From assembly GCF_020923435.1 (NCBI RefSeq), contig NZ_CP087263.1:1011970-1075969 (forward strand): a stretch of DNA of 64,000 bases. The letters run 5' to 3'. The translations under genes and the position numbers were made by a program. Shown here in pieces: positions 13,218 through 18,514 of this stretch; the stretch's first letter is position 1, and each line of letters begins with the position of its first letter. Below the pieces are notes generated by a model, which saw nothing but the letters and a program-made list of their open reading frames with translations, did not search any database and was not told the DNA's origin. This DNA is from Brevibacillus humidisoli. GTDB taxonomy: Bacteria > Bacillota > Bacilli > Brevibacillales > Brevibacillaceae.

Positions 13218-13922
13218 TTAGCGGAAGGGGGCGGTTACCGTGCGGCCCAAATCGCGCAGCAAGGCGTTAAAATCTTCGCCTGCATTAGCCAAATTTCCAC
13301 CTACCGTGGTCGGTCCGGTGGTTACACTGCCGTTGATATTGTTGTTGTTGCGCATGTTTTGATCCATGTTGCGGATGCGTGACAGCATGTTCCTGTCAGA
13401 TGTTACCCGGACGTTCAACGTCGGATCAACAGATCGGACAGCTGCTTGGACACGCCGCTCAAGTGACTGCCGCTGTCTCGGGTTATTGGCAGTCAAGCGA
13501 CTGTTTACCCCGATCACGGCGTCGTTGCCGCGAACGATTGCTGTAGCTCCATCCACACCCGCCACGTCGTCGGCAACGCGGGCCAGTTGATCTGCCTTTT
13601 GGCGGTTAAAGGCAAAATCGTTTCTGGCTGCCATGCCGTTCGCGCCAAAGTTGTTGCGGTTAAAGGCGGTGCCGCCGCGCAAATTGCGATCGTAGACACC
13701 TGGCGTGGCATTCAGACCATCCATTCCGTCATTGAAGGTGTTGTAACCAAAGGTGTTGTTGCCATAGGTGTTATAACCAAAGGTGTTGTTGCCAAATGGT
13801 CGTGTTTGGTTAATGGTTGGATTTTGACCGTCGGCATTGGGACCAGCAGCGTTATTCGTTCCACAGGCAGCCAACATGGAGACAAGCGCTAAACAAGACA
13901 GCGGATAGAGCCACTTTTTCAT
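13218..13922 (-). CDS. YhcN/YlaJ-family sporulation lipoprotein
   Basis: A membrane-anchored lipoprotein of the spore-associated YhcN/YlaJ family, 234 aa. ATG 13922 lies 10 nt after GGAGGT. Lipobox LAAC ends the signal peptide at about residue 20. Residues 35-90 are an Asn/Thr/Gly/Tyr-rich low-complexity region with a tandem repeat. The conserved domain follows: KADQLARVADDVAGVDGATAIVRGNDAVIGVNSR, then VQAAVRSVDPTLNVRVTSD. It may be the last gene of a run with the TldD/PmbA-like pair upstream (51 bp gap, no terminator seen). Confidence 0.85.
   Translation of the reverse strand: MKKWLYPLSCLALVSMLAACGTNNAAGPNADGQNPTINQTRPFGNNTFGYNTYGNNTFGYNTFNDGMDGLNATPGVYDRNLRGGTAFNRNNFGANGMAARNDFAFNRQKADQLARVADDVAGVDGATAIVRGNDAVIGVNSRLTANNPRQRQSLERRVQAAVRSVDPTLNVRVTSDRNMLSRIRNMDQNMRNNNNINGSVTTGPTTVGGNLANAGEDFNALLRDLGRTVTAPFR
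13741..13800 (-). repeat. Two tandem 30-bp repeats inside the YhcN gene
   Basis: Units 13741-13770 and 13771-13800 differ at few positions and encode about NTFGYNTYGN per unit. Confidence 0.8.
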
Positions 13923-13972
13923 TGGAATCGCCACCTCCGTTAGGTATTGTACGACGGAGTGGCCTTAAATAC

Positions 13973-15184
13973 TCAGGAATGATCCCCCATAACATGGACT
14001 GGGACCGCAACACCCGCCCCGTCCCAACCTACCCGATGCACAAGCAGTAAATCCCTGCAGGTAAGCAGCTGTGCCAGTGTTAGCTGAAGCGGCATCAGCC
14101 CTCTCAATACGGGACGGCCGCAGCGATAACGGATCGCTTGTGGAGCCCAGGCCATCACTGGAGCAAATGGAGAGAACTGTTCTGGCAGTTGAAGCTCGGT
14201 GATTAGACAAAGATCATCGGCGCTTTGCATCAGTTGGCGAAAAGACTCACTGCGGTGGTGCAGCCAGTGCAGAGATTGCCGGTTGTAGCTCGCCTTGAGT
14301 GCAGTCCCCTCGGCTGCAGGCCCGGTCATCGCGACAGACGCAGCAGGAGTACCGGCAGGTGTAAAACGATAACTCCCTAGCGACCAAGGCTGTAGCGGGT
14401 CTAACTGAATTGACAGCACATGAGGAGATTGGCGCCACCTGATCACAGATTGGATCAGCCGATCCGTCTCATCCGGCGCATCGGAGTACAGATGAACACC
14501 TAACCCATGATGAATCAGCGTACGGAATGCTTCAGGGGAAAACAACAGTAAGGTATCAAGGGAATCGTCATCATCTAGTTGCAGTTGAAGCAGCGGTGTG
14601 TCCATTGGCGGACACGAACGGTACCACTCCGACTCCATCTGCAGGTAAGTCAGTTCCTCCTCTGTCGGATACTTGCGGCTGCGATAAGATAGGGCTGCTC
14701 CAAAGCGACTGTGAAGCAACTCCACTTCAGTCAAAACGGCCATCAGTTGCGGGCCGCGAGAATGGACTGTCCACTGCCGTCTGAGAGAGAGGTGCATGCG
14801 GAAGTGCTCCGGCAGAGGTGGAAGGTTGTTGTTTTTGACCCAGTATGCCGCCTGTTCATCGAACAGACTGAGATGGGGATAGGTTGTTTCCTGATCTGCC
14901 AAGTATACGTGCGGGGGATCTTGTGGAAAGCAGCGGACCGAGCGCCACGCTGCGATCGGCAGCTCTGCCCCGCTGAAGACATGACGGTCGATCTGATGGA
15001 TCGAGCTGCTTCCATCCCGCCAGGCGATTCTAAGCAAGCCACTACTGCTTTCTTGTCGCCCGCTGTTGCTGGATAACGAATCCGTTTCTTCATAAAACAA
15101 ATGGAAGTCGCAAATACCATGGGTGTGGGCGATGTTTGTCAAACGTTCGCGCAGTAGGTCGGCCATGTTTTTGAGATCAGGCAT
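13973..15184 (-). CDS. TldD/PmbA-like protein with degenerate zinc motif
   Basis: 403 aa, ATG 15184 behind AGAGGAGGACC. I place it in the TldD/PmbA superfamily from overall plan: an N-terminal domain, a central LLLFSPEAFRTLIHHGLGVHLYSDAP segment that aligns with TldD's LSPEAAGxLLHEAxGHGLEGD, and a C-terminal domain with DLCLITELQLP resembling GLxVTEL. The catalytic HExxxH is not conserved: the Glu is His and the second His is Val, so protease activity is unlikely. It starts 19 bp after the PmbA-like gene, as in normal tldD/tldE pairs. Assignment is by eye and needs a profile search. Confidence 0.55.
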   Translation of the reverse strand: MPDLKNMADLLRERLTNIAHTHGICDFHLFYEETDSLSSNSGRQESSSGLLRIAWRDGSSSIHQIDRHVFSGAELPIAAWRSVRCFPQDPPHVYLADQETTYPHLSLFDEQAAYWVKNNNLPPLPEHFRMHLSLRRQWTVHSRGPQLMAVLTEVELLHSRFGAALSYRSRKYPTEEELTYLQMESEWYRSCPPMDTPLLQLQLDDDDSLDTLLLFSPEAFRTLIHHGLGVHLYSDAPDETDRLIQSVIRWRQSPHVLSIQLDPLQPWSLGSYRFTPAGTPAASVAMTGPAAEGTALKASYNRQSLHWLHHRSESFRQLMQSADDLCLITELQLPEQFSPFAPVMAWAPQAIRYRCGRPVLRGLMPLQLTLAQLLTCRDLLLVHRVGWDGAGVAVPVHVMGDHS

Positions 15185-15203
15185 GCAAGGTCCTCCTCTT
15201 TCG

Positions 15204-16523
15204 TCAGTCGATTTGCAGCAGCGTATACTGCTGCGCGGAGACTGTCCAGTGCAAGCGATAATCCGGCCATTCCAGCATGACCGGCCCGACTCCCCCCAGG
15301 CAGCCGGACAACCAGCCGGAAAACGAACAGTATAGCCAAGACGGAGGTCGCGGGATCAACCGTCCTTGCTGCCAACGATAGGAGGATGCAGGAAGCAGCA
15401 CAAACAGATCAGAGTCCGGATCCCAGTGGAAACGAGCAACGCCGCGCAGTACCTGCAGTTCATTGATAAGACCGCGGGCGCTGAGTTGTGCACAAATCTC
15501 GGCAGGATCATGTTCATTTTCGTCACTCCCCAAGGAAGGTAGACGAAAGGTTAAGTGAGAAGCGAACAATTGGATATTTTGGTGCAGTGCCTGGACATAG
15601 GGGCGGTCGTGTTTTTTTGGCGAACAGATGACCTCAGGTGTTAGCAGATATCCGTACGGATGCAGCGGATAGTACCCTGGAATCCCCTCGTTTGGTTCTA
15701 TCGTTACGGATGCAGCAGTTGGCGGCGGATCATTCAATGTCCCTGTCAGAAACGCTGCAAACAAGATTGCGGTCGTTGCTTCTGCATCGAGAATCATTGT
15801 GCTTGGCTCTGTTGTGACGCGAACCGGATCGGCTTCGGGGATAGCCGCACGCGAAACCAGACGGCGCAACTTGCTGACGGAGGGTGCAGCCAGTTGTTCG
15901 GCGTTAAGCAGCCGTGCTGACGGAGCAGATGTACTGGAACGCAGCTTTTGGAGCGTTTGGCTCTTCTGGTCCTGCCACTCGTTGAGGAAATCAGCCCGCC
16001 AGACCGATACCTGGTGATAAGTGCCGTCGCTGCGACCTGCCGCAAACTGATCGCAGTTAACCGTACAGATCGTGGTGACAGGTTGGGGAGCGAGCAAGTT
16101 CTGACATTGTCGATGGTGCTGTTCCACTTCTCGGAAAAAGTTGGGCGGCAGCTTGTCCTGCTTCTCTTCATCCGCAAGTAGGGGGAGAGAACGCTCTTCC
16201 AGCTTGCCCAGCCGCTCCAACTGCTCCAACAGAGCGGGATTCTGTACGGCTGTATCTTTAGCCAGGTGAAAGGCACGTTCAACCGCGGTCAGCGACCAAT
16301 CATCGGTGCACATTCGTCCTACTTCGCCGGATGGAGTCAATACGATTACTGAGATATACCGCTCTAATGCCGACTTTCGATAGTCAAATCCGCTTTTCTT
16401 CCAACAAACAATCCGGGAATCACGGACTGTTGTGTACACAGATGCGAAAACACCAAATGTGTCAGCCAACTGCAGGACAGCATCAATCAGTTGTTTTGCG
16501 GTTGGGTCCACTATCAGGCTCAT
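15204..16523 (-). CDS. PmbA/TldE-like protein
   Basis: 439 aa, ATG 16523 behind GAGAGGTGGAATC. The N-terminal part has ERYISVIVLTPSGEVGRMCTDD and SLTAVERAFHLAKDTA, resembling the TldD/PmbA R-G-x-S-V-R-V...G-x-x-G...T-x-D...A-V-x-x-A-x-x-x-A signature. The centre has STMILDAEATTAILFAAFLTGTL where TldD would carry HExxxH; as in PmbA it is absent. The C-terminus GLINELQVLRGVARFHWDPDSDLFVLLPASSYRWQQG matches the PmbA pattern G-L-x-x-x-E-L...D-P...G-D-F-x-L...G-x-x-x-x-N-G. First gene of a leftward run with the TldD-like gene and possibly the YhcN lipoprotein. Confidence 0.55.
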   Translation of the reverse strand: MSLIVDPTAKQLIDAVLQLADTFGVFASVYTTVRDSRIVCWKKSGFDYRKSALERYISVIVLTPSGEVGRMCTDDWSLTAVERAFHLAKDTAVQNPALLEQLERLGKLEERSLPLLADEEKQDKLPPNFFREVEQHHRQCQNLLAPQPVTTICTVNCDQFAAGRSDGTYHQVSVWRADFLNEWQDQKSQTLQKLRSSTSAPSARLLNAEQLAAPSVSKLRRLVSRAAIPEADPVRVTTEPSTMILDAEATTAILFAAFLTGTLNDPPPTAASVTIEPNEGIPGYYPLHPYGYLLTPEVICSPKKHDRPYVQALHQNIQLFASHLTFRLPSLGSDENEHDPAEICAQLSARGLINELQVLRGVARFHWDPDSDLFVLLPASSYRWQQGRLIPRPPSWLYCSFSGWLSGCLGGVGPVMLEWPDYRLHWTVSAQQYTLLQID

Positions 16524-16672
16524 GATTCCACCTCTCAAATCCGATCAGGCCCTCCTCACCGCCCTTTTTATGGTGGCGGAAGGAAGTAGCAGCGAGATTT
16601 TACATGTATGACGTTGTCGTGCGGGGAACTACCTGTTATCATGGAAGGTATGCACAAACAGAGGAGGACAAA

Positions 16673-18514
16673 ATGAAACGTCAAGATATACGCAATATTG
16701 CCATTATTGCTCACGTCGATCATGGAAAAACAACCCTGGTCGACAAGTTGCTGATTCAATCGGGCACATTTCGCAGCAACCAGCATGTGGAAGAACGGAT
16801 GATGGACTCGAACGATCTGGAGCGGGAACGCGGCATTACGATCCTGGCCAAGACTACTTCCGTCAAGTACGAAGAGTACACGATCAACATTCTTGATACG
16901 CCCGGCCACGCCGATTTTGGTGGAGAAGTAGAGCGGATCATGCGGATGGTCGATGGCGTGCTGTTGATCGTTGATGCCTTTGAAGGTTGTATGCCGCAAA
17001 CCCGTTTTGTTCTGAAAAAGGCGCTGGAAGCTGATGTGACTCCCATTGTCGTGGTCAATAAAATCGACCGGGACAATGCTCGTCCACAAGAAGTGATTAA
17101 TGAAGTATATGATTTGTTCATCGACCTTGATGCCTCTGAAGAGCAACTTGAGTTTCCGATCGTCTACGCATCGGGCCTCCAGGGGATTGCAGGGATGGAG
17201 CCGGATCAACTGCAGAGCGACCTTCGTCCGCTGTTCGAGACGATTATCTCGACCATTCCGGCACCGGACGCGGACGAGGATGCTCCGCTTCAGATGCAGG
17301 TGACGATGCTTGATTACAATGATTTCCTTGGCCGCATCGGGATCGGCCGCATTTATCGCGGTACGATGCAGGTGAACGATCAGGTGGCTGTGGTGAAGCG
17401 AGATGGTTCTGTCAAACGGATGCGCATACAGAAGCTATTCGGATTCTCCGGCTTACAGCGCGTAGAGTGGAAGGCGGCACGTGCAGGGGACATTGTAGCG
17501 GTTGCCGGGCTGGAGGAGATCAATGTCGGAGAAACCGTCTGCGACACTGAACACCCTAATCCTTTGCCGCTGTTAAAAATCGATGAGCCTACGCTGCAAA
17601 TGACCTTCCTTGTCAACAACAGTCCCTTCGCCGGACGGGAAGGCAAACACGTCACATCCCGCAAACTGCGCGATCGACTGTTAAGCGAGTTGGAGACGGA
17701 TGTATCCCTCCGGGTAGAGGAGACGGATTCGGCCGATGCGTTTATTGTCTCCGGACGCGGCGAACTCCACCTGTCCATCCTCGTTGAGAACATGCGCCGG
17801 GAAGGCTATGAACTGGCTGTCTCCAAGCCGGAAGTAATCATTCGCGAGATAGACGGACAGAAAATGGAGCCGACTGAACGGCTGATTATCGACGTGCCGG
17901 AGGAGTACACCGGCTCCGTGATGGAGACCCTCGGGATGCGGAAGGCAGAAATGGTCAACATGATTAACAACGGATACGGACAGGTTCGTCTCGAGTTCCT
18001 GATTCCCTCGCGCGGGCTGATCGGCTATCGTACAGAGTTTCTGACGATCACGCGTGGTTACGGAATCATGAACCATTCCTTTGACAGCTACCGGCCGCTG
18101 GTGCCAGGAGAAGTCGGCGGACGACATGCGGGCGTACTCATCTCCAGTGAAAGCGGTACAGCTACCACGTATGGTCTGATGTCTGTCGAGGACCGGGGCG
18201 TCATGTTTATCAATCCGGGAACAGAAGTGTACGAAGGCATGATTGTGGGCGAACATAACCGTGACAACGATCTGACCGTAAACGTCTGCAAAGAGAAGCA
18301 TGCTACCAATGTCCGCTCGGCAACCAAGGAAGAGACGGTAAAAATGAAGACGCCGCGCTTGCTCACGCTGGAAGAGGCTCTGGAATACCTGAATGACGAC
18401 GAGTTGTGCGAGGTTACACCACAGTCAATCCGACTGCGCAAAAAGTATCTGAGCAAGTCAGAGCGGGAGCGCTATGCCAAACAGAAACGGTGGGAGGCGC
18501 AGCCTCAATCGTAA
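16673..18514 (+). CDS. typA: Ribosome-binding GTPase TypA/BipA
   Basis: A translational GTPase of the EF-G class acting in ribosome assembly and stress adaptation. 613 aa from ATG 16673 (GAGGAGGACAAA site). G1 is AHVDHGKTT, switch II DTPGHADFGGE, G4 NKIDRD. Elongation-factor domain 2 and the two alpha/beta domains follow (GRGELHLSILVENMRREGYE), with the BipA-specific C-terminus. B. subtilis ylaG is the counterpart; ylaH lies two genes on, as in that organism's yla region. Strong terminator downstream. Confidence 0.96.
   Translation: MKRQDIRNIAIIAHVDHGKTTLVDKLLIQSGTFRSNQHVEERMMDSNDLERERGITILAKTTSVKYEEYTINILDTPGHADFGGEVERIMRMVDGVLLIVDAFEGCMPQTRFVLKKALEADVTPIVVVNKIDRDNARPQEVINEVYDLFIDLDASEEQLEFPIVYASGLQGIAGMEPDQLQSDLRPLFETIISTIPAPDADEDAPLQMQVTMLDYNDFLGRIGIGRIYRGTMQVNDQVAVVKRDGSVKRMRIQKLFGFSGLQRVEWKAARAGDIVAVAGLEEINVGETVCDTEHPNPLPLLKIDEPTLQMTFLVNNSPFAGREGKHVTSRKLRDRLLSELETDVSLRVEETDSADAFIVSGRGELHLSILVENMRREGYELAVSKPEVIIREIDGQKMEPTERLIIDVPEEYTGSVMETLGMRKAEMVNMINNGYGQVRLEFLIPSRGLIGYRTEFLTITRGYGIMNHSFDSYRPLVPGEVGGRHAGVLISSESGTATTYGLMSVEDRGVMFINPGTEVYEGMIVGEHNRDNDLTVNVCKEKHATNVRSATKEETVKMKTPRLLTLEEALEYLNDDELCEVTPQSIRLRKKYLSKSERERYAKQKRWEAQPQS

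Follow-up and report, generated by a model that had tools for sequence, protein, structure and literature searches.

A TldD/TldE-type gene pair without a recognisable zinc site in Brevibacillus humidisoli and other Brevibacillaceae

The gene pair and the predicted fold of its products

The gene pair lies in a 64,000-nucleotide stretch of the Brevibacillus humidisoli genome (contig NZ_CP087263.1, positions 1,011,970 to 1,075,969; hereafter the window), where the ORF list places it between typA and yhcN. The first gene, P0002 (15204..16523, minus strand), encodes 439 amino acids and the second, P0001 (13973..15184, minus strand), encodes 403; the two are separated by 19 bp. An earlier note, made from the DNA letters alone, had described them as adjacent leftward ORFs, and its coordinates and lengths hold. 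Divergent from the pair on the upstream side is typA/bipA (16604..18514, plus strand, longest ORF). Downstream is the gene for a spore lipoprotein of the YhcN/YlaJ type (13218..13934, minus strand, longest ORF; PF09580, E 8.3e-17), preceded by a sigma-G-like promoter (13945..13975, minus strand). A tandem repeat of 30 bp with a 15-bp sub-unit is present inside yhcN at window positions 13735-13794, in the part of the lipoprotein that is rich in Asn, Tyr, Phe and Gly.

The two products were likened in the earlier note to TldD and PmbA (TldE), and this resemblance is borne out by fold searches and profile scores, although the direct sequence signals are weak. P0001 matches the Pfam family PF19289 with an E value of 0.087 and 12.4 bits, against a cut-off of 22, and P0002 matches no Pfam family, so that neither protein reaches the curated cut-offs of PF01523 or PF19289. 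The top PF19289 score among the orthologues scanned, 19.8 bits for the B. dissolubilis orthologue of P0001 (L092), is also below the cut-off. An NCBIfam scan of the pair and a phmmer search of the PDB sequences returned nothing informative.

AlphaFold2 models were built on shallow alignments of 7 (P0001) and 8 (P0002) sequences. The P0002 model has a pLDDT of 87 and a pTM of 0.84. The P0001 model has a pLDDT of 72 and a pTM of 0.70, its pLDDT falling below 50 in residues 90-105 and in the greater part of 244-305. Both models are predicted to have the two-domain fold of TldD/TldE, with PDB matches near full length. In Foldseek searches of the PDB, TldD/TldE chains account for all 16 matches of P0002 at E≤0.001 (best E 9.3e-20) and for all 14 matches of P0001 at the same threshold. 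VIA-align aligns P0002 to TldD/TldE structures with Z scores of 20-22 and rmsd values of 3.9-4.7 over 377-393 residues, the next unrelated row having a Z score of 4.3; for P0001 the Z scores are 13-15 with TldE structures and about 10 with those of TldD. The P0002 model ends in two predicted C-terminal strands, residues 408-418 and 427-437. Profile-profile comparisons of the two families with canonical TldD/TldE gave scores of 38-58, and the maximum among decoys, 31 for each comparison, was 22.0. Predicted fold, profile homology and gene order together place P0001 and P0002 in the TldD/TldE (PmbA) superfamily. TldD/TldE-type pairs can slip past standard family models.

Subunit assignment and the missing zinc site

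Twenty canonical TldD/TldE pairs, picked by the author, served as controls, and in all 20 the HExxxH-bearing gene comes first. Ten further control loci, mostly divergent pairs from Bacilli, were also inspected. Eight have a TldD with HExxxH, and the other two gave only a TldE-like protein (L180:862-2121 and L182:1114-2475), with no TldD on the fetched stretch. When only canonical profiles are used, the P0002 family is nearer to TldE (p 1.6e-6) than to TldD (p 7.5e-4) over its whole length, as is the P0001 family (p 2.4e-5 and 3.5e-4, respectively); the C-terminal half of P0001 is slightly nearer to TldD (p 7.1e-5 versus 3.4e-4 to TldE). Because the canonical comparison placed both proteins nearest TldE, it left their roles unsettled, and it was a second, divergent lineage that settled them.

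This lineage was encountered when the P0002-family profile was run against 398 genomes of the phylum, where it matched its own genome and at least six distant Bacillota (L190-L195); four or five candidates were scored per genome in this search and in those of two class samples, of 299 and 398 genomes, so that neither absences nor the count of six are exhaustive. All six encode a divergent TldD with HEAFGH and TCGK..GQ. On the fetched stretch of five of them there is a second gene, TldE-like and without HExxxH, which the P0001-family profile matches; the sixth contig (L193) breaks off behind the TldD gene, which puts the second out of view. The HEAFGH-type pairs form a lineage separate from the canonical pairs. 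In two of these loci (L192 and L195) the pair has similar neighbours, an ORF for a membrane protein and one of about 255 amino acids, the latter presumably, judged by eye, a PHP-type hydrolase.

The relation to this lineage holds subunit by subunit. In hhalign comparisons, the P0002 family matches the HEAFGH TldD (99.2%, p 1.2e-19) and hardly its TldE (p 0.026), whereas the P0001 family matches the TldE (99.1%, p 1.1e-18) and not the TldD (p 0.28). The two matching comparisons scored 154 and 142, respectively, and column shuffles, 20 for each of the four family/subunit comparisons, never exceeded 22.3. Chance resemblance was rejected as an explanation: decoys stayed at or below 22.3, against real scores of 38-58 for canonical TldD/TldE (31 decoys each) and 142-154 for the HEAFGH lineage (20 each). 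Single sequences give modest matches to the HEAFGH profiles (P0002, 27.9 bits; P0001, 22.3 bits), and those of the B. laterosporus group give no significant match. The HEAFGH TldD profile, run by itself against 259 genomes of the class, had a single match in the genome of the window, and that match lies inside P0002 (E 7.0e-7).

Phylogenetic reconstructions (FastTree, SH-like support, rooted on a canonical tip) place the family and the HEAFGH group in one clade in both the TldD tree (17 of 17 sequences, support 0.92) and the TldE tree (14 of 14, support 0.94). Under midpoint rooting the root of the TldD tree falls inside this grouping, which is then no clade, and the branch leading to the P0002 family measures about 2 substitutions per site, so long-branch effects are possible. 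Taken together, profiles, phylogeny and operon order identify P0002 as descended from TldD and P0001 as descended from TldE. The earlier note had taken the 403-aa protein as the TldD-like partner; the same three lines of evidence swap its labels and make the 439-aa protein the TldD.

The loss of the metal site can be read in P0002. In the alignment with the HEAFGH lineage, residues 255-260 (15744..15761, minus strand) read FAAFLT at the position of HEAFGH, and both the stretch that follows HEAFGH and the GTCGK..GQ loop, source of the Cys ligand, are missing. In TldD the peptide cleft is built from two insertions, the clamp and the brace; by this alignment the CGK part of the clamp is absent from P0002. 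RSDG at residues 164-167 (16023..16034, minus strand) is retained; it is invariant in 11/11 family sequences, and the TldD proteins of L190-L195 have RSDG in five cases and RTDG in one. No sequence of either family, the window included, has HExxxH at the homologous site (0/11 for P0002, 0/9 for P0001). A fortuitous HExxxH occurs in the N-terminal domain of the P0002-family member of B. migulae (L085), at residue 55.

The earlier note was correct that neither protein carries a zinc-protease motif, a statement that extends to the orthologues, and that P0001 contains the string HHGLGVH (residues 225-231; 14492..14512, minus strand). Its reading of that string as a degraded HExxxH is not borne out. 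HHGLGVH aligns with the central helix of TldE, which has no HExxxH there; since P0001 is derived from TldE, the string is not a mutated form of the motif. The site varies among orthologues, with the exact string in none of the eight aligned, and the P0001-like protein of B. fluminis has a deletion directly after it. The idea that P0001 is a TldD whose motif has mutated was therefore rejected: its family profile matches the HEAFGH-lineage TldE and not the TldD, and the local sequence varies. The zinc site of the TldD-like partner has indeed been lost, as claimed, but in P0002 and not in P0001. That neither predicted subunit has a zinc site holds for all orthologues examined. As HExxxH is missing from the homologous site throughout, the pair is not filed as an M103 peptidase and is best classed as a putative non-peptidase homologue.

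The pair was also considered as inactive partner to a second TldD of the cell. This was rejected because its own genome, a single 4.9-Mb contig, gave no hit to PF01523 or PF19289 at E≤0.001, a search that a TldD as divergent as P0002 could escape. PF19289 matches over the cut-off were found in 2 of 39 family genomes (G003 and G027). The latter, B. daliensis, has a canonical TldD/TldE pair with HEACGH elsewhere in its genome (L184).

Distribution, the link to yhcN and selection

By profile search, 10 of the 39 Brevibacillaceae genomes have a P0002-family member and 9 have one of the P0001 family. In the two class samples the family was seen in at least 8 of 299 and at least 8 of 398 genomes and, among the candidates scored, only in Brevibacillaceae. 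A search for related loci with P0002 as query found no relative, and a search of plasmids found no match. Of the 25 named loci (L068-L092), six have both genes (L068, L070, L079, L085, L088 and L092); the B. daliensis locus (L087) has only a P0002-like gene, with no P0001-family match; and in 16 yhcN adjoins typA without the pair. At L082 typA follows speD with no yhcN between them, and in B. massiliensis (L069), where the locus contains 647 N bases, neither typA nor yhcN was recognised within 10 kb to the right of speD. L082 is titled Anoxybacillus sediminis PCH 117 and groups with Brevibacillus thermoruber on the tree of neighbouring genes; the name looks wrong.

The window and seven orthologous loci carry both genes as full-length ORFs. 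The P0001-like gene of B. fluminis has an internal deletion and that of genome G029 is truncated, its 3' part alone matching. Together with the lack of a match in B. daliensis, this indicates that the P0001-family gene is dispensable in places. On a tree of four neighbouring genes, from which L069 is absent and in which some nodes, including the placement of B. fulvus, are weakly supported, the pair is scattered, a pattern more easily reconciled with ancestral presence and subsequent losses than with repeated insertion at a single site. The pair was probably ancestral in Brevibacillaceae and then lost completely at least three times. The hexamer ACTTCC, which several P0001-like genes carry at their 3' end, also stands directly before the -35 box in 8 of the 16 pairless loci, and the pairless locus L075 retains a frame ending in DLVMTP, where its sister ends in DLVYTP. 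These traces look like a deletion scar, although they could be part of the promoter instead.

One explanation of the pair is that it forms a sporulation unit with yhcN, being expressed in the forespore together with it and handling a spore lipoprotein or peptide. The gene yhcN is directly downstream in the complete pairs examined, and in six of seven checked (the exception is B. fluminis) the P0001-like gene's stop codon supplies the first three letters of the yhcN -35 box. In B. subtilis, YhcN is a spore protein of the cortex and inner membrane, as described in part of PMC12239749. Against this explanation stands the retention of yhcN without the pair in the 16 loci noted above.

The promoter evidence points the same way. 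A site close to TGAGTA-N17-CATACTA is conserved upstream of yhcN in pairless genomes; in 13 of the 16 pairless loci it lies no more than 120 nt from the ORF start and has 0-2 mismatches and a spacing of 17 or 18, and at L073, L076 and L089 a scan across the ORF start shows that it overlaps the start of the longest ORF. This site resembles the sigma-G consensus of B. subtilis. The window version, whose -35 box TGAGTA starts with the P0001 stop codon, has a poor -10 box and three mismatches in all at a spacing of 18 (p 0.02). It appears that yhcN has its own promoter, independent of the pair. Scans for sigma-factor sites in eight regions upstream of the pair, including that of B. daliensis, which has the first gene only, found no common site and hence no shared sporulation promoter. 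B. fluminis has a perfect sigma-E-like match and B. laterosporus one with a single mismatch, in different places, and there is none in the window. With its own promoter, and retained where the pair is gone, yhcN does not need the pair, and the link is weak. The sporulation role that the earlier note drew from adjacency to yhcN is weakened accordingly, and a joint sporulation unit is unlikely.

A second explanation is that the pair is a functionless relic, a HEAFGH-type pair that lost its substrate in Brevibacillaceae and erodes gene by gene. The complete losses, along with several partial ones within a single family, would be expected of such decay, as would the very long tree stems. In the B. 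laterosporus group, dN/dS values (NG86) are 0.32 for P0001-like genes (one comparison) and 0.24-0.34 for P0002-like genes (three comparisons), about ten times those of typA (0.02-0.03). The same values are, however, well below 1 and close to those of the retained neighbour yhcN (0.20-0.25). The intact ORFs at eight loci, invariant positions and motifs such as RSDG, and the confidently predicted fold of P0002 also argue against decay. Taken together, these comparisons indicate that the pair evolves fast yet constrained, under loose purifying selection, and decay without function is rather improbable, somewhat more so than the sporulation unit. That a different, non-zinc catalytic site has arisen in the old cavity is the least probable explanation and very unlikely: the P0002 family does have a few invariant polar residues (among them H86, H137, R164, D166 and H288), but RSDG is common to the zinc-bearing relatives and is at least not a new active site, and no other point favours catalysis.

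A putative non-catalytic shell compared with known TldD/TldE systems

TldE is taken to be an inactive helper to an active TldD. The explanation that we favour, and consider likely, is that the pair consists of the TldD and TldE of a divergent HEAFGH-type lineage in which catalysis was lost in Brevibacillaceae, leaving a non-catalytic shell. The predicted fold, the pairing, the tldD-tldE order, the loss of the metal site and the constraint are shown by sequence or structure prediction. From P0002, HExxxH, the residues directly behind it and the Cys-Gly-Lys ligand loop are gone, and P0001 is of the subunit type that has no site. The two proteins may still assemble into a hollow heterodimer comparable to TldD/E or to the catalytically empty TldE homodimers, and this shell would bind a peptide or protein partner instead of cutting it. 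More tentatively, a whole protease complex may have become a pseudo-enzyme whose shell was recruited in Brevibacillaceae as a peptide- or protein-binding chamber, possibly during spore formation; we regard this wider reading as possible but doubtful. If the favoured explanation is true, the site has gone from the active partner as well and the genes have stayed together, which would mean that the TldD/TldE shell is useful apart from proteolysis, and the pair would be a natural separation-of-function case. In the titles, opening lines of abstracts and some passages of the TldD literature, no report of a pair without the motif in both subunits was recognised.

Three known systems come close to the pair. 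The HEAFGH-type pairs (L190-L195) share with the Brevibacillus pair the subunit-by-subunit relation in profiles and trees, the gene order, and RSDG or RTDG, and differ from it in retaining HEAFGH and TCGK..GQ in TldD (6/6) and in their genomic settings. TldD/TldE (PmbA) of Escherichia coli, a heterodimeric metalloprotease (MEROPS M103), is described in passages of PMC5810440 as a spherical shell in which the metal is held by His262, His267 and Cys454 of TldD and TldE has no metal. Both Brevibacillus subunits have the same predicted fold as these proteins, and the two-gene unit, the order tldD-tldE and a TldE-type subunit without a metal site are likewise the same, whereas in the Brevibacillus TldD subunit HExxxH and the Cys ligand loop are missing, and the sequences fall under the Pfam cut-offs. 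The same passages of PMC5810440 describe TldE homodimers without a recognisable catalytic site. Such TldE/PmbA homodimers from structural genomics (1VL4, 1VPB, 3QTD and 3TV9) are likened to the pair as hollow shells without a catalytic site, and each of the four turns up as a structural match of the predicted P0001 and P0002 models. Those are TldE alone, whereas the Brevibacillus pair encodes two different subunits; by analogy, the pair would be a two-subunit version of the empty TldE-homodimer shell.
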